Source: a virus. Taken from it: a stretch of DNA of 40,101 bases. Positions 16,867 to 39,530 of this stretch are shown in pieces (positions within the stretch are counted from its first letter, which is position 1; each line of letters starts with the position of its first letter). Under the pieces are notes generated by a model. It had not been told where the DNA came from and ran no database searches. It worked only from the letters and a program-made list of their open reading frames with translations. The stretch is from positions 1 through 40,101 of IMG/VR virus record IMGVR_UViG_3300032296_002122. The stretch is one strand, 5' to 3'. The translations under genes were made by a program, and so were the position numbers.

Positions 16867-16900
16867 AGGGGTTGCAATCCCTGAAACGCGAGTCTACACT
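16867..16900 (+). promoter_or_regulatory. Sigma-70-like promoter with palindromic operator candidate
   Basis: TTGCAA at 16872-16877 and TACACT at 16895-16900 are separated by 17 bases, giving 4/6 matches at each box. The -35 lies in the centre of a near-palindrome, AGGGGTTGCAATCCCT (16867-16882), which could be an operator. The promoter would drive the rightward replication genes. It sits in the 78-base divergent gap, whose other side is the SNF2 start; I could not find a convincing leftward promoter. Confidence 0.5.
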
Positions 16901-16925
16901 GATCACAGTTTTTGAGAAAGGAGAA

Positions 16926-17276
16926 ATGTCAGTGCCCAAGGTTTATGTCGTTTCTGAGACCTTGCAACACAATATTGCAAGTGCCCAGGATTACGGCCAG
17001 ATTGAGACGATTTTGCCGCCTAACGCTCAGATTGCGTTTTCTGTCGTTCCGACCGTTCGACGGATCCAGCGCAAACTGGACAAGTTCACCGATAACGATT
17101 ATTTGTTGTTGATCGGTGATCCGTCTGCAATAGGTATATGTTGTGCGGTAGCGGCATTCAAGAACAACGGTCGATTCAAGTGCCTCAAGTGGGACAAACG
17201 CGAACGACGTTACATCCCGTTAGAGGTTGATCTTTTCAAGAAAGGAGAACTAGATGAGCCTTACGAGCTTATTTGA
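16926..17276 (+). CDS. Conserved hypothetical protein, first gene of the replication operon
   Basis: A 116-residue protein starting at MSVPKVYVV, chosen because GAGAAAGGAGAA lies immediately upstream; an earlier ATG at 16872 lies on the -35 box. The sequence alternates strands and helices (YVVSETLQHNIASAQDYGQI, DNDYLLLIGDPSAIGICCAV, RFKCLKWDKRERRYIPLEVD). I recognise the pattern from phage replication modules but not its function. Its end overlaps the next gene by 23 bases. Position suggests an early role in DNA metabolism or host take-over. Confidence 0.65.
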   Translation: MSVPKVYVVSETLQHNIASAQDYGQIETILPPNAQIAFSVVPTVRRIQRKLDKFTDNDYLLLIGDPSAIGICCAVAAFKNNGRFKCLKWDKRERRYIPLEVDLFKKGELDEPYELI

Positions 17277-17808
17277 GCAAGAAGCCGATGCGCTGCGCGT
17301 CCAAGACGACCAGATCACCGGTATCGCAGCCCTAGCCCGTCGTGCCAAGTCACTCGAGAAACAAATCGAGGACGAGGAAACGACGCTCAAGGGCCTGAAA
17401 GAGCAGTATCGCAAGCTGACCGAGGAAGCTATCCCGGAAGCCCTCACCGAGATGGGCATGTCATCCTTCCGCATGGAAGATGGCAGCTCGATCGATGTGA
17501 AGCCCTTCTACAGCGCCTCGATCAGCGAAGCCCGACGTGCCGAAGCCTTCCAATGGCTCAGGGACCACGGCTTTGACGACATCATCAAAAACACCGTCAG
17601 CGTGCGCTTCGGGCGTGGCGAGGACGAGTTGTGCAACCGTCTCCTCGGTATGCTTGGTCAGCAGGGTTTCCCTGCCGAGCAGTCCGAGAAAGTAGAACCC
17701 TCGACCCTGAAGGCCTGGGTCAAGGAACGGGTGACACGTGGCGAGGAGTTCCCGACGGAACTGTTCGGCGCGTACATCGGTAAAAAGGCCGTAATCAAGT
17801 CAGCTTAA
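17254..17808 (+). CDS. Conserved coiled-coil phage protein of the replication module
   Basis: A 184-residue protein with an N-terminal coiled coil (about 20-55, LARRAKSLEKQIEDEETTLK), then a globular region with FRMEDGSSIDVKPFYSASIS, a conserved NTVSVRFGRGEDE block, and a C-terminal motif EKVEPSTLKAWVKERVTRGE followed by FPTELFGAYIGKKAVI. This architecture recurs in phage replication neighbourhoods. It loosely resembles nuclease-inhibitor or Gam-like coiled-coil proteins, but I cannot assign it. The start has a strong GAAAGGAGAA site 4 bases upstream and lies inside the previous gene. Confidence 0.65.
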   Translation: MSLTSLFEQEADALRVQDDQITGIAALARRAKSLEKQIEDEETTLKGLKEQYRKLTEEAIPEALTEMGMSSFRMEDGSSIDVKPFYSASISEARRAEAFQWLRDHGFDDIIKNTVSVRFGRGEDELCNRLLGMLGQQGFPAEQSEKVEPSTLKAWVKERVTRGEEFPTELFGAYIGKKAVIKSA

Positions 17809-17824
17809 TAAAGGACCACGAATC

Positions 17825-18598
17825 ATGGCTAAAACAGCTTTAGCAGAGAAGAACGAATCATCCACCGCGTTGGCGATTGCCACGGCATTCGAAGAGGATG
17901 CCAGCAGCAGTTTTGCCGGAATGAACCAGGACGACTTCGCCCTGCCGTTCCTGCGACTCCTGACCAACACGTCACCGGAAGTTGGTGAGGTCGACGGGGC
18001 ACTCCCCGGCATGATCTACAACAGCGTCACCGGTCAGCTCTACGATGGTAAGAAGGGCATTGTGGTGGTTCCGTGCGCATACGTGCGTCAGTACATCGAG
18101 TGGGCTCCCCGTGGGAGCGGCTCCGGTGCGCCGATCCACATCTACCCGGCCACGTCCGACATCCTCTCCCGTACGCACCGCGAACCGGGCGAGAACAAGG
18201 ACTACCTCGACAACGGTAACTACATCGAGAACACTGCCAACCACTACGTGATGGTGATTGACGAAGACGGTACGCCGTCGCCGGCAATGATCGTCATGAA
18301 GTCCACGCAGCTCAAGAAGAGCCGCAAGTGGAACAGCATGATGCAGTCGGTGAAGTTGCAGGGTAAGAACGGTTTGTTCACCCCGCCGATGTACAGCCAA
18401 ATGTACCGCTTGACCACGCAGCCTGAGTCGAACGACAAGGGCAAGTGGTTCGGTTGGGAAGTTGAGCGTATTGGTACAATCGATCGAGACGACGTTTACG
18501 CCGCGTGCAAATCCTTCGCACTGTCTGTATCTTCGGGTGCAGTACGTGGGAAGCACGAGAGCGAAGGTGACGCTGCTTCTGGCGCTGCACCGTTTTAA
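17825..18598 (+). CDS. Probable phage single-stranded-DNA-binding protein
   Basis: A 257-residue protein. After a flexible Ala/Ser/Glu-rich start comes a body with FALPFLRLLTNTSPEVGEVD, MIYNSVTGQLYDGKKGIVVV and VMKSTQLKKSRKWNSMMQSV, consistent with an OB-fold-like beta structure. The last residues, ESEGDAASGAAPF, mimic the acidic SSB tail that ends in Pro-Phe and recruits partner enzymes. Position immediately before the primase and upstream of the helicase and polymerase supports a binding-protein role. The site AAAGGACC lies 10 bases before the ATG. I am moderately sure of the functional class and unsure of the family. Confidence 0.6.
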   Translation: MAKTALAEKNESSTALAIATAFEEDASSSFAGMNQDDFALPFLRLLTNTSPEVGEVDGALPGMIYNSVTGQLYDGKKGIVVVPCAYVRQYIEWAPRGSGSGAPIHIYPATSDILSRTHREPGENKDYLDNGNYIENTANHYVMVIDEDGTPSPAMIVMKSTQLKKSRKWNSMMQSVKLQGKNGLFTPPMYSQMYRLTTQPESNDKGKWFGWEVERIGTIDRDDVYAACKSFALSVSSGAVRGKHESEGDAASGAAPF

Positions 18599-23900: not shown

Positions 23901-24338
23901 ATGAAGAAGCCTTTGGCAAAAGGTCGTCAGTGGACAAAGATGTACTACGACGACTTCAACAGAAAGTTTCCGCGCCTCGGCATGGCGCGGCTCGCTGCTC
24001 GCGAGGATGAAGAGGGCAAACAGAAACTCCGTGAACTGAAGGAGTATGTGTTTCGTTACAGGCGAAAGCGTAAGTACCGCTATCCGGGCCGCTACTCGCC
24101 CGATCGTCGCAAAGGCGCGAAGTTTCACAGCGTGATGGTGCCGCTCGAGACGCACCAAAAGCTCAAAGAGATCGCTAAGTTCTACAAAAAGAGCATGGCC
24201 ACGATCATCCGAGAGCACATCGACGAGCTCTTTGACAAGACATACAAAGAGGCCGAGCTGCTCGCACGCATCGAGGCCAACAGGAAGAAAGATGAAACAC
24301 CAGACACAGATAAGCCTCGACGTCGATATAACGTATGA
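23901..24338 (+). CDS. Basic protein with ribbon-helix-helix-like region, putative DNA binder
   Basis: A 145-residue, very basic protein. I start it at MKKPLAKG, after a strong AAAGGAGAA site; the in-frame ATG at 23850 lies on the promoter. Residues about 60-85 are Arg/Lys/Tyr rich (RYRRKRKYRYPGRYSPDRRK). The segment SVMVPLETHQKLKEIAKFYK then SMATIIREHIDELF (about 93-130) has the strand-helix-helix pattern of ribbon-helix-helix regulators such as Arc and CopG. As the first gene of the small-gene operon, directly downstream of a promoter, it could be a regulator of it. Function is inferred. Confidence 0.6.
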   Translation: MKKPLAKGRQWTKMYYDDFNRKFPRLGMARLAAREDEEGKQKLRELKEYVFRYRRKRKYRYPGRYSPDRRKGAKFHSVMVPLETHQKLKEIAKFYKKSMATIIREHIDELFDKTYKEAELLARIEANRKKDETPDTDKPRRRYNV

Positions 24339-31026: not shown

Positions 31027-31242
31027 ATGTTAACAGTTGACACGGGCATCCCGATCCCCGCCGAAGCCCAGCGGGAGAAGTACCCCTTCCCTGTCATGGC
31101 CGTAGGGGACAGCTTCCTGCTACCAGATGCCGAAGCTGCCAAGAACGCGCGTAGCGCCGCCTGGATGTTCTCCAAGCGGCATGGGACGAAGTTTTCGTGC
31201 CGGCGTGTCCCGGAGGGCTGGCGGGTCTGGAGAGTCGCGTGA
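31027..31242 (+). CDS. Small conserved protein upstream of the small terminase
   Basis: A 71-residue protein (MLTVDTGIPIPAEAQREKYP ...) with MAVGDSFLLPDAEAAKNARS, AAWMFSKRHGTKFSCRRVPE and a GWRVWRVA end. This is a familiar small phage protein with an F-x-C-R-R and W-R-V-W signature and no known function. No ribosome binding site is seen before the ATG, which lies 6 bases after a possible -10 box (TAGACT), so leaderless initiation is possible. GTGA overlap with the next gene. Confidence 0.7.
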   Translation: MLTVDTGIPIPAEAQREKYPFPVMAVGDSFLLPDAEAAKNARSAAWMFSKRHGTKFSCRRVPEGWRVWRVA

Positions 31243-31919
31243 AGCTAACCAGCAAGGCGGACAGGGAGTTCGGCAAGCAGATCAGCAGAGGGCTTCAGCC
31301 GAAGACGATCGAGAAGATCAACCGCCCTGTCCCTAACGTCCCGAAGAAGCAGAAGCAGCTCACCACGCAGGAATGGAAGTTCGTCAACGAGTTCGTAGCC
31401 GGGGACGGCCACGTGACTCTGCGGGAGGCCGTGGTTCGTGCAGGGTGGCCAGAGAAGAACGCCAAGCGGCGCGCCGAGGATCTGACCGACCCAGACAAGA
31501 ACCCGCACATCGTCGCTGCGATCCAGAAGATGCGCGCGGAGATGGCCGAGAAGTACGGCACGACCTACGAGCGCCACATGCGCGACCTACAGGTGATCCG
31601 CGACCAGGCACTGGCGGCGGGAGCCTATGGCGCTGCTGTCCAGGCTGAATACCGTCGAGGCCAAGCCCTGGGCACGATCTACATCGATCGCAAGGAGATC
31701 AGGCACGGCACGATCGACTCCATGAGCAAGGAGGAGGTCATGCGCAAGTTGCAGGAGATCAAGAAGCTGTACGGCAACGGCAGCCCTGTGATCGACGTCA
31801 CACCGGAACAGGTAGCCGAGAGTCTGGAAGAGGAACCGAAGGATGCCAGCGAAGCCAGAGACGAAGCTGTACCAGAGGTTGAAAGAAAACCTCCCAAGCT
31901 GCCTTTTTACCCGGATTGA
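31239..31919 (+). CDS. terS: Terminase small subunit (probable)
   Basis: A 226-residue protein. I start it at GTG 31239, overlapping the previous stop, with GGAG upstream. QLTTQEWKFVNEFVAGDGHV and TLREAVVRAGWPEKNAKRRA (about 41-80) form the helix-turn-helix region of Terminase_2-type small subunits, which bind pac or cos DNA. The middle (RHMRDLQVIRDQALAAGAYG then AAVQAEYRRGQALGTIYIDR) is a helical assembly region like that of other phage TerS proteins, and the C-terminus is acidic. The subunit would oligomerise on phage DNA and recruit the large terminase, which here lies 6.1 kb away. Confidence 0.8.
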   Translation: MKLTSKADREFGKQISRGLQPKTIEKINRPVPNVPKKQKQLTTQEWKFVNEFVAGDGHVTLREAVVRAGWPEKNAKRRAEDLTDPDKNPHIVAAIQKMRAEMAEKYGTTYERHMRDLQVIRDQALAAGAYGAAVQAEYRRGQALGTIYIDRKEIRHGTIDSMSKEEVMRKLQEIKKLYGNGSPVIDVTPEQVAESLEEEPKDASEARDEAVPEVERKPPKLPFYPD

Positions 31920-33703: not shown

Positions 33704-34807
33704 ATGGCGACGTTAATGGATGCCTCGCGGCAGTGGGCAACACGTCCACCAGAAGAGCGGTTTACGTCATTACCGGCCATGCGCGCCATGCTCGAACAGG
33801 TGCGCGAGTTGTCGCATGCCTCGGTTGTGAGCTCTCGCAGTCTCACGGCCGTACCTGTCAACGATGAGCGCGGATACTCTCGCGGAATCCTGATTCAGGA
33901 TTCCAACGGCAGGACGGCAGCTCCGTCAAATTGGGCGTTCGGCCAGTTGGCGAGCCTGTCGGGAGCACCGGCTAGTTATCTGCGGACGTTACCGGCTCCG
34001 CTTGTTGCCGATTGCCTCAATTATGGTTTGAAGGTTGAGCGAGATGCGGCCGATGTTGGGATGCTGTACACAGGCGAAAACCAGAAAGCCCTCGAAGTCC
34101 GCGCGGCCACTGGTGCGCGATATGGTCGCATCTGGAACTCGGATGTAGTGCGCGCCCTCGAGGATCGGTTCGGGGATGGCGTGACGGGTGACTTTCGAGT
34201 GCCGGGAGAATTTGGAAAAGGCCTTGCAGAAGTCACGCGAGACAACACGACATTGTTTGCGAGCGATCGCGATATGTTCGTGTTCCTTGCCGATGAGCAG
34301 AATCGAATCGAGTTACCTAACAGGCGTGACGGCAAAACGGGCGCGCTCGCGCGTGGGTTCTTTGTCACAAATTCGGAAGTCGGCGCGGGTGCTCTGAAAA
34401 TCAAAACATTCTTATTCGATTACGTTTGCAAAAATCGGATTGTCTGGGGCGCGCATGAGCTCGAAAGCATTTCGATTCGCCACACTGCAAGCGCACCGGA
34501 TCGATTCATTGAAGAGGCTGCACCGGCTCTGCTCGAGTACTCGCGCGCGAGCTCGTCGAACATCACAACAGTGCTGCGATCTGCACAGTCGTCGAAGCTG
34601 GATAAGGTCGAGCAGTTTTTGGCGGGTCGGTTCGGGGCTCGTATCGGCGAGCGTATCGCGGCGGTACATCTTGAAGAGGAGGGACGGCCAATCGAATCGG
34701 TGTTCGATGCGGTGACTGGTGCGACAGCCTATGCGCGCTCGATTCCGTGGACGGCCGAGCGTGTCCAGTTTGAAGAGACGGCGGGAGCTCTGCTCGATGT
34801 AGTTTGA
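33704..34807 (+). CDS. DUF932 (phage/plasmid-like) protein
   Basis: A 367-residue protein with the signatures of the DUF932 family (TIGR03299-like, phage/plasmid proteins): WAFGQLASLSGAPASYLRTL, DRDMFVFLADEQNRIELPNR, RGFFVTNSEVGAGALKIKTF and the C-terminal block EQFLAGRFGARIGERIAAVH. The family is widespread on phages and plasmids and its biochemical role is unknown. The start has GGAGG 8 bases upstream. Nothing catalytic is evident. It precedes the amidoligase and glutamine amidotransferase genes and is separated from them by a terminator and a promoter. Confidence 0.8.
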   Translation: MATLMDASRQWATRPPEERFTSLPAMRAMLEQVRELSHASVVSSRSLTAVPVNDERGYSRGILIQDSNGRTAAPSNWAFGQLASLSGAPASYLRTLPAPLVADCLNYGLKVERDAADVGMLYTGENQKALEVRAATGARYGRIWNSDVVRALEDRFGDGVTGDFRVPGEFGKGLAEVTRDNTTLFASDRDMFVFLADEQNRIELPNRRDGKTGALARGFFVTNSEVGAGALKIKTFLFDYVCKNRIVWGAHELESISIRHTASAPDRFIEEAAPALLEYSRASSSNITTVLRSAQSSKLDKVEQFLAGRFGARIGERIAAVHLEEEGRPIESVFDAVTGATAYARSIPWTAERVQFEETAGALLDVV

Positions 34808-34922: not shown

Positions 34923-36344
34923 ATGTCGAACATTTTCGAATTGCCCTATTTTCAAGCCGTTTTCGCCGATCCGGATCGTCGGGAGGCACTTGCGCAGCGG
35001 ATCGCTGATCGGCTCGTTAATCCGTTGAACACTCTCGGCGGCTACCGTCAATTCCGGCAGCGCATGCAGTGGTTCGCCGGGTTGTGTGAGGCGGCGCGCC
35101 GTTGTGATGACGCGACCCCGTGGTCTCTCGTCTCGCAGGTGGCAAGGCTTACCGCTGATGAGGACGTGTTTTCGCCGTCTCTCGAGTGGCATCTGGCGTC
35201 TCTCGATTACGTGGTCAGTGATCGAGAGTCGTCGCGCCTGTTCCATCGTTGGGAGTTCGTCGAGGACGATCGTAGTTATGCGGTCGATCGCCTGTCCGAG
35301 TGGGGCTCCTTCTCTGGGTGCGAGTGCTGCGGCGAGTCGTTCCCGATAGGTGATCTCGCGGACGCGTACGGCGGCGAGCTCGTCTGTGAATCATGCCGGG
35401 ACGACAGCTACACGTGGTCGGAGTATCACGACGCATGGGTGCACTGTGACAGCAGCCGACCCGCTATCGATCAGGACGGGAGCCGCTGCCTGATTCATCA
35501 GGATGCGGACGACTTCGAGTATGACGAGGATCGCGAGATGTACATCCACGTCGATTACATCCGAGAGCGTCGAGTTATTCAGGGCTACCATTCTTCCAAA
35601 GGTGCGTTCGAGTTTCGAGCGGATGACTGGTGTCGGCAGTTCAATCGATACATGGGCGTCGAGCTCGAAGTCGAGGGTTACAGTCGCGATCCAGAAGAGG
35701 CGGCGCGCGCCATCCATCAGTCAGTGAATGATGGCGTGTTCGGTCGTCATGTGTTCTTCGAGCGCGACGGCAGTCTGTCGAGCGGGTTCGAGATGATCAC
35801 CCATCCGCAGAGTCTCCCGGCTCATCGAGAGCTCTTTACGTTCCTTCGCGATCCTGCTCTGGTTCGAGGTCTGCGCAGCCATCGAACGACGACGTGCGGC
35901 CTACATGTTCACGTGAGCCGATCCGGTCTCTCGAATCTCACGATCGCGCGCGCGGTCACGTTTGTGAACGATCCGGGGAATGATGCTTTCATTACTGCGA
36001 TCGCCCGGCGGTATTCCACGTCGTTCTGCAAGGTCGTCGAGAAGGATGTCGAGACTGCTCACCTCTCGGCTGATCGGTATGAGGCGATCAATCTAACGGG
36101 GCGCGAGACGATCGAGTTTCGGATCTTTCGCGGTTCGTTGAAATATGAGGCTGTGATCTCGGCCATCGAGTTCTCGCATGCCATCCTCGAATACTGCGCG
36201 CGACCGGAGACGAGCTCGAGCGCGCTCAATGCTCACGCGTTCTTGGCCTACTGTGCGACTCACCTCGAAGCGGAGACGCGCGTCATGCGCGCCTATGTTG
36301 CCGATCGCACTGCGGGTCTCTTTCAACACTCGGAAGCGGCCTGA
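34923..36344 (+). CDS. Zinc-ribbon plus amidoligase (GS-like COOH-NH2 ligase) protein
   Basis: A 473-residue protein. Residues about 1-125 are helical. A four-cysteine zinc ribbon follows (C133-x2-C136 and C155-x2-C158), then an acidic linker. The C-terminal domain shows amidoligase_2 motifs: GVELEVEG with Glu247 and Glu249, ERDGSLSSGFEMITHP (Asp282, Glu290), CGLHVHVSR (His328, His330), and RYEAIN ... TIEFRIFRG (Arg385, Glu398, Arg400). Proteins of this glutamine-synthetase-like fold are predicted ATP-dependent ligases joining a carboxylate to an amine. Ammonia could come from the glutamine amidotransferase encoded next. The substrate is unknown. Confidence 0.8.
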   Translation: MSNIFELPYFQAVFADPDRREALAQRIADRLVNPLNTLGGYRQFRQRMQWFAGLCEAARRCDDATPWSLVSQVARLTADEDVFSPSLEWHLASLDYVVSDRESSRLFHRWEFVEDDRSYAVDRLSEWGSFSGCECCGESFPIGDLADAYGGELVCESCRDDSYTWSEYHDAWVHCDSSRPAIDQDGSRCLIHQDADDFEYDEDREMYIHVDYIRERRVIQGYHSSKGAFEFRADDWCRQFNRYMGVELEVEGYSRDPEEAARAIHQSVNDGVFGRHVFFERDGSLSSGFEMITHPQSLPAHRELFTFLRDPALVRGLRSHRTTTCGLHVHVSRSGLSNLTIARAVTFVNDPGNDAFITAIARRYSTSFCKVVEKDVETAHLSADRYEAINLTGRETIEFRIFRGSLKYEAVISAIEFSHAILEYCARPETSSSALNAHAFLAYCATHLEAETRVMRAYVADRTAGLFQHSEAA

Positions 36345-36364: not shown

Positions 36365-37309
36365 ATGTGTTTATTAGTTCATCAGCCATCGAGCACCACG
36401 TTCTCGGATGAGTTCTTGGCGGACGTCTACTCGGGCAATCGAGACGGCATCGGCGTTATGTATTCGAGCGGCGGCCAGCTGGTCGTCGTCAAGGCTCTGC
36501 CGGCCTCGGTCGATCAGTTCATCGCGTTCTATCGTGAGCACATCGAGGGGCGCGAGTCTGTATGGCACGCGCGTATGCAGACTCATGGCGATATCGATCT
36601 CGAGAATTGTCATCCGTACGGCGTCACGTCTCGCGTTGCGCTCGCACATAACGGGATTCTCTCGACTGGTAATGCGTGGGACAAATCAAAGTCGGACACG
36701 TGGCACTTCATCCGAAACGTGATTCGCCCGGCCGTCGAGGCTGACGAGTCGATCGTGCTCGATCCGACTTGGCAATCGTTCGTCGGTAGCCTGATCGGAA
36801 GCTCGAACAAGTTCGGGATGATGACAGCGAGCGGGTCGGCGGTGATCATCAATCGCGCGGCCGGTGTCGAGTTCCGTGGTGCGTGGTTGTCGAACACGTA
36901 TGCGTGGAGTGCGCAGAAGTTCGGAGTCGGCGCGCGCTCGGTGAGCACTCGCTACACGTCGAGCCGCATCTGGTCGGGCTACACGTGGGACGACGACGAT
37001 CTGGAGCCGTACGTTTCGAGCTCGCGGTCGCGCTCGATGCCGTCGGGCGAGTCGCTGCCTCGTATCACGCGCGCGGCGCGCAATTCGTACATCCGGGGAA
37101 CACTCACCCAGTGGGTGCTCGATGCTCCGTCGAAGGCTGCCGCGCTCATCAATGCAATCGAGGACGACAACACTGGCGCGAGCGGCGAGCTCGCGTGGAA
37201 GGATCCGGAGCTCGTCGTCGAGACGATTGCGGATTGGTTCGAGGGCGAGGGCATCGAGCCGCCATCGAGCTCGAGCGTCTATCTGCGCGATCCGTGGGTG
37301 ACTGACTGA
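36365..37309 (+). CDS. Class II glutamine amidotransferase-like protein
   Basis: A 314-residue protein with an N-terminal nucleophile Cys2 (MCLLVHQPSS), NRDGIGVMY (25-33), WHARMQTHGD (67-76), NCHPYGV (81-87) and LAHNGILS (93-100). These match Ntn-type glutaminase domains, in which Cys2 releases ammonia from glutamine and the conserved Arg, Asn and Gly bind substrate. The C-terminal 150 residues are Ser/Arg-rich and family-specific. The ATG follows a GGAGG site and lies 21 bases after the amidoligase stop, so the two genes form an operon. It probably supplies ammonia to the amidoligase. A strong terminator follows. Confidence 0.85.
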   Translation: MCLLVHQPSSTTFSDEFLADVYSGNRDGIGVMYSSGGQLVVVKALPASVDQFIAFYREHIEGRESVWHARMQTHGDIDLENCHPYGVTSRVALAHNGILSTGNAWDKSKSDTWHFIRNVIRPAVEADESIVLDPTWQSFVGSLIGSSNKFGMMTASGSAVIINRAAGVEFRGAWLSNTYAWSAQKFGVGARSVSTRYTSSRIWSGYTWDDDDLEPYVSSSRSRSMPSGESLPRITRAARNSYIRGTLTQWVLDAPSKAAALINAIEDDNTGASGELAWKDPELVVETIADWFEGEGIEPPSSSSVYLRDPWVTD

Positions 37310-37331
37310 TCGATCGCGAGCTCATCGAGCG

Positions 37332-37363
37332 AGAGAGGGCGCCCATGTGGCGCCCTTTCTTTT
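37332..37363 (+). terminator. Strong intrinsic terminator after the amidotransferase
   Basis: AGAGAGGGCGCC (37332-37343), a 5-base loop and GGCGCCCTTTCT (37349-37360) form a 12-bp stem with one G-T pair, followed by TTT. It closes the amidoligase operon. Confidence 0.9.
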
Positions 37364-37434
37364 GGGCGATCGGGTGCTCGTTGTCGAGTTGAGAGTTGAC
37401 CAGGTATGTCTCGTTGGAGCGAGTTGGTATGTGA

Positions 37435-37495
37435 TCTCGAGCTCGCCCTGGTGGTGTGCGATCTCGAGCGGGAGCGTCGGTCTCGAGCTCGCCCT
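37435..37495. repeat. 15-bp direct repeat TCTCGAGCTCGCCCT
   Basis: The 15-mer TCTCGAGCTCGCCCT occurs exactly at 37435-37449 and 37481-37495, 46 bases apart. Both copies contain overlapping CTCGAG and GAGCTC palindromes. The copies lie in the GATC-rich non-coding region. Confidence 0.8.
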
Positions 37496-37625
37496 TCTGG
37501 GCTGGTCTCCGGTCAAGCTTGGCGCGAGGGGGTCGCGCCCTGCTCCGTGGTTCGTGCTGCTTTGTATGTGATCCGGGATCCTCGATCCTCGGGTCGTGAT
37601 CCGTGAGCTGTTGCGCGTGCTTCTC

Positions 37626-37685
37626 GATCTGCGGATCTCGGATCTGCGGATCTCGGATCTGCGGATCTCGGATCTGCGGATCTCG
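37626..37685. repeat. 15-bp tandem repeat, four exact copies, built from GATC
   Basis: The unit GATCTGCGGATCTCG is repeated four times without change (starts 37626, 37641, 37656, 37671) and runs into a partial GATC. Each unit contains two GATC sites, at alternate spacings of 8 and 7 bases. No gene covers it convincingly. Confidence 0.95.
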
Positions 37686-38007
37686 GATCGGTGATCTGTT
37701 GTCGTCGTCGAGCGTCGGTGTTCGTGATCCGTGGCGCGCGATCCTCCAGCTGGCGCGCGTCGGCCTCGATGCGCGATCGATCGGCCGCGATCCGGTGCTC
37801 GATGTTCGTGATCCGCGAGCCGTGGCGCGCGGGACGTGTATGTTTCTCCCTGCCCTGGTGGTGAATTCTTTGAGGGTGGCGGCTCAAAAAAATGGCCGGC
37901 TTCGTAAAGGCAGGGGCAAATGCCCGATTTCACACATCCGATGTGCTGCAAAATAGTTTTATTGTCTAGGCGGGGGAGGGGTACCCCCGGTAGAAAAAAG
38001 GGCCCCG

Positions 38008-38042
38008 GTTGATCAACTTGTCAACTCGTGCAAAAATTTTGC
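38008..38042. promoter_or_regulatory. Palindromic sites upstream of the large terminase
   Basis: GTTGATCAAC (38008-38017) is a perfect 10-bp palindrome. GATCAACTTGTCAAC (38011-38025) is the exact reverse complement of the promoter sequence at 32261-32275. A second inverted repeat, GCAAAA-A-TTTTGC, spans 38030-38042. These may be repressor or packaging-protein sites; no good promoter could be assigned for the terminase. Confidence 0.4.
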
Positions 38043-38066
38043 GCATATGAAAAGCAATTTGACCCT

Positions 38067-39530
38067 ATGAGCGCGGTCCCCCAGGAAATCGAAATCGAGC
38101 GTGCCAAGCTGGAATACCGGTTCATGCTCCTTGAGACGCAAGACAAGGCCCGTGCTAACTTCATCGACTTCGTGCGCTACGTCTGGCCGGCCGCGATCCT
38201 TGGTGAACACCACAAGCGCATGGCTTCTGCGTTCGATCGCATTGCCAATGGGACCTTGAAGCGCCTGATCGTGAACATGCCTCCTCGTCACACGAAGTCG
38301 GAGTTCGCCTCGTACCTGCTCCCGGCGTACCTCATGGGCCGTGATCCGCGAACCCAGGCCCTTGAAGCGACCCACACCGCAGAGTTAGCCGTCAAATTCG
38401 GTCGTAAGGTGCGTGATCTGATGGACTCGGACCGGTACAAGGAGCTGTTCCCTGAGGTGCAGTTGAAGCAGGACAGCAAGGCTGCTGGCCGGTGGGACAC
38501 GAACCACGGCGGGAGTTACTTTGCGGTCGGTGTCGGCGGTGCGGTGACGGGGCGCGGTGCGGATATTTTGATTATTGACGACCCGCATTCGGAGCAGGAT
38601 GCCTTATCGGATCTCGCTTTGGAGAACGCGTGGGACTGGTACCAGGGCGGTCCGCGTACTCGTTTGCAGCCGGGCGGTGCGATTGTGCTCGTGATGACCC
38701 GTTGGGGGACCAAGGACCTGACGGCGCGGTTACTCAAAGCGCAATCCAGTCGCGGGGCGGATCGGTGGGAGGTGATTGAGTTCCCGGCGATCCTGCCTAG
38801 CGGAAAGCCCCTATGGCCGGAGTTCTGGAAGCTCGAAGAGTTGGAGGCTGTTAAGGCGTCGTTGTCGGTACAGAAGTGGAACGCCATGTACCAGCAGCAG
38901 CCGACGAACGACGAGGGTGCAATCCTCAAGCGTGAGTGGTGGCGCGTGTGGCAGTACGACGAACCGCCGATCGTGAACTACATCATCCAGAGCTATGACA
39001 CGGCGTACAGCAAAAAGGAGACGGCCGACTTCTCGGTGATCACGACCTGGGGTGTGTTTTACCCGGACCAAGACTCAGGGCCAAACATCATCCTGCTAGA
39101 CGTCAAGCGTGGGCGGTGGGACTTTCCGGAGCTCAAGCGCATTGCCAAAGACGAGTACAAGCACTGGAACCCCGACAACGTGCTGATCGAGGCGAAGGCG
39201 ACCGGTGTGACGTTGCAGCAGGAGCTGCGGCGGCTTGGCATTCCGGTGACCATGTACACACCGGGTGGACGTAGGTCAGGTACGGATAAGGTCAGTCGCG
39301 CGAACGCGGTAGCGCCGGTGTTCGAAGCGGGGCTCGTGTGGGCACCGGATACGGATTGGGCGGAAGAGCTTGTCGAAGAGTGCGCGGCGTTTCCGAACGG
39401 CGATAACGACGACATGGTGGACTCGACGACGCAGGCGATCATGCGTTTCCGTCAAGGCAATTTCGTCAACTTGCAGACTGACGAAGTAGGAGAGCCGTCA
39501 AATCGAGCGCTTGCCCCTGAATACTATTGA
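38067..39530 (+). CDS. terL: Terminase large subunit
   Basis: A 487-residue packaging ATPase and nuclease. Start ATG 38067 (MSAVPQEIEI) is chosen; a GTG at 38028 would add 13 unlikely residues. The Walker A-like motif NMPPRHTKSE (70-79), ALEATHTAELA, Walker B ADILIIDDPHSE (Asp171, Asp172) and motif III VLVMTRWGTKDL give the ATPase. SYDTAYSKKETADFS (Asp311), VLIEAKATGVTLQQ and DDMVDSTTQAIM (Asp448, Asp449) give the RNase H-like nuclease. It cuts concatemers and pumps DNA into proheads. The ribosome binding site is weak. The small terminase lies 6.1 kb upstream. Confidence 0.95.
   Translation: MSAVPQEIEIERAKLEYRFMLLETQDKARANFIDFVRYVWPAAILGEHHKRMASAFDRIANGTLKRLIVNMPPRHTKSEFASYLLPAYLMGRDPRTQALEATHTAELAVKFGRKVRDLMDSDRYKELFPEVQLKQDSKAAGRWDTNHGGSYFAVGVGGAVTGRGADILIIDDPHSEQDALSDLALENAWDWYQGGPRTRLQPGGAIVLVMTRWGTKDLTARLLKAQSSRGADRWEVIEFPAILPSGKPLWPEFWKLEELEAVKASLSVQKWNAMYQQQPTNDEGAILKREWWRVWQYDEPPIVNYIIQSYDTAYSKKETADFSVITTWGVFYPDQDSGPNIILLDVKRGRWDFPELKRIAKDEYKHWNPDNVLIEAKATGVTLQQELRRLGIPVTMYTPGGRRSGTDKVSRANAVAPVFEAGLVWAPDTDWAEELVEECAAFPNGDNDDMVDSTTQAIMRFRQGNFVNLQTDEVGEPSNRALAPEYY

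Follow-up and report, generated by a model that had tools for sequence, protein, structure and literature searches.

In bacteriophage P1, the packaging site pac carries several repeats, and its GATC sites are fixed TGATC(A/G) hexamers inside the gene for the terminase small subunit (TerS). Bacterial heptanucleotide simple repeats, such as the STRRs of cyanobacteria, are tandem, intergenic and near-exact, and are found at several chromosomal sites. Contiguous 7-bp direct repeats are also bound by Omega, the ribbon-helix-helix ParB protein of pSM19035, which occupies 7-10 units at one dimer per unit, has low affinity for one unit and high affinity for several, and has sites that overlap promoters (PMC9499535). 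Periodic sequence of another kind occurs in VIPR, where the vrRNAs comprise 9-16 YNNGG pentanucleotides and are accompanied by the Vipr protein, a RAMP (PMC13142463), while in lambdoid phages Chi is concentrated between the origin and the packaging site (PMC3784561).

Here we describe a tract in a virus record of IMG/VR (linear, 40,101 bases), analyzed over its full length and referred to as the window. The tract is an array of degenerate 7-bp units that all point one way on the terminase strand, with the consensus YGRNCCG. The array resembles the sites of Omega in that contiguous 7-bp direct units fill one non-coding stretch, with a period of 7, a single strand and runs of 17-18 units in the window, and possibly in its binder, as most of the phages here encode a CopG/Arc-like candidate. 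However, Omega binds 7-10 near-identical WATCACW units at par and copy gene promoters, whereas the 14-63 degenerate YGRNCCG units described here do not match WATCACW, precede the terminase gene and have candidate binders. P1 pac and TerS-bound pac sites are likewise cis-sites near terminase genes with several repeats, including GATC hexamers in P1, but the GATCs of P1 are fixed and lie inside the TerS gene, whereas in this array GATC is one of several ways to spell the unit, with TerS encoded ~6 kb upstream. We found no conserved GATC sites of the P1 type, as GATC columns are more variable than others and some relatives are GATC-poor, and the features consistent with pac are limited to the position before the terminase large subunit (TerL) gene and the one-directional repeats. 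Cyanobacterial STRRs share the tandem, intergenic arrangement of heptamers but are near-exact copies at several sites, in contrast to the one degenerate, TerL-tied array per genome seen here. As with vrRNAs, the sequence is phage-borne and periodic, with fixed and variable positions and a conserved segment after it; the vrRNA unit, however, is the 5-base YNNGG and comes with Vipr, whereas the unit here is 7 bp with another motif and lacks a GGY/NN run. Chi clusters of lambdoid phages (PMC3784561) likewise place over-represented words, all in one direction, between the replication genes and terminase, but the Chi octamer is fixed and has no period, whereas the words here share a 7-bp frame. A literature search on heptanucleotide arrays in phages returned nothing directly comparable and, as far as we know, also from the papers searched, a single-copy cis-element with a strict 7-bp phase and near-free spelling, kept before TerL in lineages whose TerL identity is as low as 43-60%, is undescribed.

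GATC density and the heptad frame

The tract lies between a glutamine-amidotransferase-like gene and the TerL gene, in the following arrangement.

36365-37309, + strand: upstream gene, class-II glutamine-amidotransferase-like (weak; Pfam GATase_4, E 2e-5)
37286-37825, no strand assigned: GATC-dense tract with 26 GATC, from word counts
37337-37363, + strand: terminator-like hairpin with a T-rich tail, closing the upstream gene and preceding the array (found by script; another scan did not list it)
37517-37641, + strand: heptad run A, ~18 units (TGGCGCG AGGGGGT CGCGCCC TGCTCCG TGGTTCG ... TGATCCG ... CGGATCT), from the HMM parse; sliding score peak at 37491-37521
37622-37689, + strand: 15-bp tandem expansion (TCTCGGATCTGCGGA x4.6) holding 10 of the 26 GATC and breaking the 7-bp phase; near-identical relatives lack it
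37715-37838, + strand: heptad run B, ~17.5 units (GTGTTCG TGATCCG TGGCGCG CGATCCT ... TGATCCG CGAGCCG TGGCGCG CGGGACG), from the HMM parse; sliding score peak at 37701-37721
37885-38066, + strand: conserved non-coding block between array and TerL; relatives carry a parS-like palindrome here, lost in the window
38067-39530, + strand: TerL, terminase large subunit, the gene linked to the array (PHROG 38, E 5e-116; Pfam Terminase_6C)

The initial annotation had pointed to about 26 GATC sites in some 540 bases of non-coding DNA, roughly ten times the random expectation. An exact count gave 26 GATC starts in 37286-37825, and the estimate was a fair one, with ~6-fold enrichment over this genome and ~12-fold over a flat 1/256. 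No other 4-mer is as enriched in the tract; at the rate of the rest of the window (7.8 per kb), 4.2 would be expected in 540 bases (Poisson P about 8e-13). Genome-wide counting revealed no equal density elsewhere, with the densest other 540-base window reaching 12 GATC, the same as the maximum over 100 dinucleotide-shuffled genomes. Dinucleotide shuffles of the tract itself averaged 13 GATC and reached at most 21, and the expectation under a maximal-order Markov model is 23, so most of the excess reflects the local word make-up of the tract. When the 15-bp array was excised, the joined 472 bases held 17 GATC, one of them made by the join (P about 4e-7). The tract indeed looks non-coding, since stops in the six frames shift between close relatives and an ORF at 37603-37953 has no Pfam or PHROG match, and a hidden gene was rejected on these grounds.

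The spacings between GATC sites in the window are mostly 7, 14, 21, 28, 35 or 56, with 8 within the 15-bp array. Averaged over 41 dereplicated tracts, the autocorrelation peaks at 7, 14, 21, 28, 35 and 42, while TerL coding sequence lacks such peaks, and a cyclic HMM with a shared profile gained 1547 nats at period 7 versus 235, 459, 294 and 437 at periods 5, 6, 8 and 9, placing period 7 ahead of each by more than 1000 nats and making period 5 the worst fit of those tried. The resulting profile, G(0.79) G/A N C(0.67) C(0.86) G(0.58) C/T, reads YGRNCCG if begun one base earlier. Profiles built on held-out halves, split at a TerL identity of 84.5% (below versus above), gave the same consensus from both halves and scored 15/15 and 19/26 tracts of the opposite half above every dinucleotide shuffle. 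In the window, runs A and B are parted by the 15-bp expansion and a short linker; relatives typically have ~30 units (median 33.5), divided among two to five runs. Of the units, 2016 were parsed with confidence, and these have 440 spellings, so the array is not a plain tandem repeat. The words CGTGRYCCGYG and GCCCTGGTR, with strand counts of 60:0 and 38:0, largely reflect the heptad frame. Palindromes of 4 and 6 bp are also enriched; as adjacent heptad positions 1-2 and 2-3 are complementary above independence (GATC, GGCC), the heptads explain much of this enrichment, and we discarded the reading of the tract as a palindrome island. The profile had also made it seem likely that the heptad is a dyad centered on its free base, an idea that we dropped because complementary pairs at positions 1/3 are not above independence. 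Linkers between runs in L041, L071 and L137 often hold GTGTTTGT...ACAAACAC inverted repeats.

Within the heptad, positions are unequally variable. When close relatives were compared in ten sets, variability was lowest at position 0 (G; 9.3%) and position 4 (C; 8.9%), intermediate at positions 1 and 3 (~15%) and highest at positions 2, 5 and 6 (~20%); the comparison has some circularity, as the phases were taken from the same profile, with phase fixed by long runs and not by single bases. Between near-identical tracts, changes are often clustered word swaps, for example TGGAGCG versus TTGATCG, and the array is rewritten fast by tandem duplication and short word replacement.

Among six near-identical tracts, that of the window and those of five relatives whose TerL is 98% identical or more, 25/95 (26%) of GATC columns vary versus 91/606 (15%) of the others. 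Relatives of the same anatomy can have 0-5 GATC, and those with TerL ~92% identical have 1-7 in 550 bp. Among the latter, the L010 group (TerL ~92% identical, shared layout) has 1-2 GATC and many GGCC and CTCGAG. On the TerL tree (62 rows), GATC richness requires 6 changes, at least 4 of them forced by well-supported branches. GATC is abundant in the window because many of its heptads read TGATCCG, CGATCCG or CGATCCT and because one 15-bp piece has recently expanded; it is a side effect of the larger heptad feature and neither the unit that matters nor, as a methylation site, the thing being maintained. The tally of one restriction-type word can in this way expose a hidden periodic element.

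Uniqueness and linkage to TerL

Scoring the window with the heptad profile gave values above zero only on the + strand of the tract, with the remaining + strand below -11 and the best minus-strand window at -3.9. Each genome has one array, on the + strand only, and in 65/66 loci the best 140-mer lies 150-950 bp before TerL; the heptad score of L025 is below zero despite a TerL that is 91% identical. A blind scan of 2.9 million viral contigs for four consecutive consensus heptads returned 109 stretches. Of 81 hits in the loci listed, 44 were strong arrays; a TerL relative (43-88% identity) lies 266-2338 bp downstream on the same strand in 32 of the 44 strong arrays listed, and in 8 of the other 12 listed the sequence ends at most 750 bp from the array. 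Bacterial genomes searched with a five-heptad pattern, which serve as a baseline for slippage, contained scattered repeats, the strongest mostly near-perfect simple repeats, with no link to TerL. One viral record (L305:1-126) has CGATCCG x18 at a contig edge with no TerL relative nearby and is perhaps an unrelated simple repeat.

The relatives are environmental (metagenome) contigs, the longest 58-65 kb. Phage DSL-LC04, which also has the array, is metagenome-assembled and of lake origin, at 61.5 kb, with a host assigned by prediction only (PMC10611076). The layout of the group is an upstream gene, a terminator-like hairpin (present in 32/41 relatives by a simple test), the heptad array, the conserved block of ~180 bp and TerL. 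The gene adjacent to the array varies, and the glutamine-amidotransferase-like gene of the window is not kept in all relatives; array, conserved block and TerL travel together. Neighboring genes seen were those for terminase, GATase-like, amidoligase-like and DUF932 proteins, the last two lying 5' of the glutamine-amidotransferase-like gene in the window (34923-36344 and 33704-34807, respectively). Farther off, at 16872-18598 of the window, three adjacent genes match Pfam families named for cyanophage Pam3 gp32, gp33 and gp34, which suggests a replication-side module of shared ancestry.

Contig ends are frequent in this region, with 26/80 falling at most 1250 bp upstream of TerL, ~4x denser than farther out. 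The 80 ends are scattered and share no single base, and other contigs run through, and a cos site or fixed genome end was therefore rejected. Two genome-size contigs, L034 and L080 (G007 and G008), start and stop inside the tract, in repeats; assemblies of this phage group tend to break there.

Candidate readers of the array and alternative explanations

The period, consensus, strand, single occurrence, TerL linkage and lower variability of the G and second C are observations; protein binding, the identity of the binder and a role in packaging or control are inferred. The explanation that we tentatively prefer is that the array is a site for unit-by-unit assembly of an oligomeric DNA-binding protein of the phage. 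Such a protein would assemble cooperatively along the heptads, with avidity letting single units vary in sequence, and the protein-array complex would serve either as a packaging mark on the genome or in control of the late/terminase operon. Two candidate binders are encoded in the window, a conserved CopG/Arc-like protein, which would act as Omega/ParB of pSM19035 does on its heptads, and TerS, which would act as a ring.

23901-24338, + strand: candidate binder with a CopG/Arc-like (ribbon-helix-helix) C-terminal region, in 10/11 group genomes
31197-31919, + strand: candidate binder, terminase small subunit-like (TerS; PHROG 51, E 2e-5; Pfam Terminase_2, E 0.012)

For the CopG/Arc-like protein, the predicted model and weak fold matches (Arc, CopG and MatP, all with E above 1) agree, and family support is weak too; DSL-LC04 has the array and no detectable homologue. 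A TerS ring is a natural candidate given the fixed position of the array before TerL. Cooperative assembly of a phage protein is favored by the Omega precedent on heptads, by the CopG/Arc-like gene and by the TerS option that the TerL position offers, while counting against a protein site is that direct duplication alone also yields one-directional words. Of the roles first proposed for the tract, that of a possible packaging or partition region fits better, given a one-directional array fixed before TerL and a parS palindrome between the two in many relatives. If the array is a protein-assembly site, it offers a testable way into the start of packaging or the switching on of late genes in uncultured phages.

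The main rival, somewhat unlikely in our estimation, is a neutral repeat, in which an ancestral heptamer is kept by slippage and short templated copying in the absence of coding constraint, so that composition and polarity are inherited with no reader protein. Perfect stretches in some members (TGGCCCG x16 in L295, TGAGCCG x11 in L311), the 15-bp expansion private to the window, the similar simple heptamer repeats of bacterial genomes and the clustering of contig ends in the tract are all consistent with slippage. Neutrality is harder to reconcile with a fixed place before TerL and a constant consensus in arrays whose spelling is unalignable, and with the lower variability of heptad positions 0 and 4. 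Moreover, phage genomes rarely retain 500 bp of unused DNA.

Less likely than neutral slippage, and improbable, is that transcription of the array yields a structured or guide-like RNA resembling the periodic vrRNAs of VIPR with a 7-base unit. Such an RNA would suit a phage-borne sequence in which a repeating unit, constant at some positions and free at others, runs into a conserved block, and folding is stronger in the tracts than in shuffled copies (mean z about -2.8). However, fold z-scores are equal on both strands, leading us to reject an RNA made from one strand; no Rfam family matches the window at gathering score, which speaks against a known RNA family; and TerL is the sole fixed neighbor gene. 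VIPR itself was rejected for its mismatch in period and motif, as GGYNN runs in the group of the window are at shuffle level at their longest, save in DSL-LC04, whose minus strand has one run of 5.

We likewise consider doubtful that the tract is a replication origin or a Chi-like recombination cluster beside the packaging region. The position of one-directional words between replication genes and terminase recalls that of Chi in lambdoid phages (PMC3784561), and the word GCTGGTGG has an 18:0 strand bias in the tracts. Against this, cumulative GC skew in a 65-kb relative has no turn at the tract, which led us to reject an origin on this measure, and no GCTGGTGG was seen in the tract of the window. 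Chi clusters are also not known to keep a strict 7-bp phase over many units.

More speculative, and rather improbable, is that the array is a recognition code in its own right, a periodic nucleic acid with fixed and free positions in a 7-base frame that would be expressed as a guide-like RNA or recognized by a new kind of protein that forms filaments. The code would be coupled to the packaging motor throughout a phage lineage and rewritten in an arms race. Least probable is a methylation-controlled site (P1 pac-like or SeqA/oriC-like) or a decoy acting through GATC, the initial annotation having suggested a site for a methylation-sensitive host factor or a decoy: 26 GATC in 540 bp do adjoin the terminase gene and GATC-rich tracts have emerged in several lineages, but GATC columns vary more than other columns even among near-identical relatives, near relatives of the same anatomy are GATC-poor and no Dam-family gene (MethyltransfD12, PF02086) was found in ten genomes of the group, leading us to reject the Dam, SeqA and decoy readings. 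Nor does this phage avoid GATC elsewhere, with 310 observed versus 293 Markov-expected.

A parS-like palindrome beside the array

An exact palindrome of the chromosomal parS type (GTTCCACGTGGAAC, GTTTCACGTGAAAC or a mixed form; generally GTTYCACGTGRAAC) occurs in 26/64 distinct upstream blocks, about once per genome and always 54-114 bp before TerL, as at L004:6217-6230, L082:6539-6552, L041:723-736 and L078:7893-7906. The string GTTCCACGTGGAAC appears in papers on the chromosomal parS of Pseudomonas aeruginosa, Myxococcus xanthus and others, and a search of the literature on host-type parS sites in phages yielded nothing directly comparable. The window has no copy of the palindrome, and ten records of the group yielded no ParB_N gene. 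By parsimony, the palindrome changes state 14 times on the TerL tree, and its placement relative to flanking landmarks differs. With the palindrome beside the array in many relatives, one may ask whether chromosome-segregation proteins of the host are recruited.

A small HNH-like ORF (MKTTCSKC...KHH...CHL) lies between the array and TerL in L060, L062 and L063 (ending 2 bp before TerL) and in L039 and L002. This ORF abuts or ends at a seemingly truncated parS palindrome (CTCTCCACGTG(G/A)AAC), and the palindrome may be an insertion site of the HNH-like ORF.
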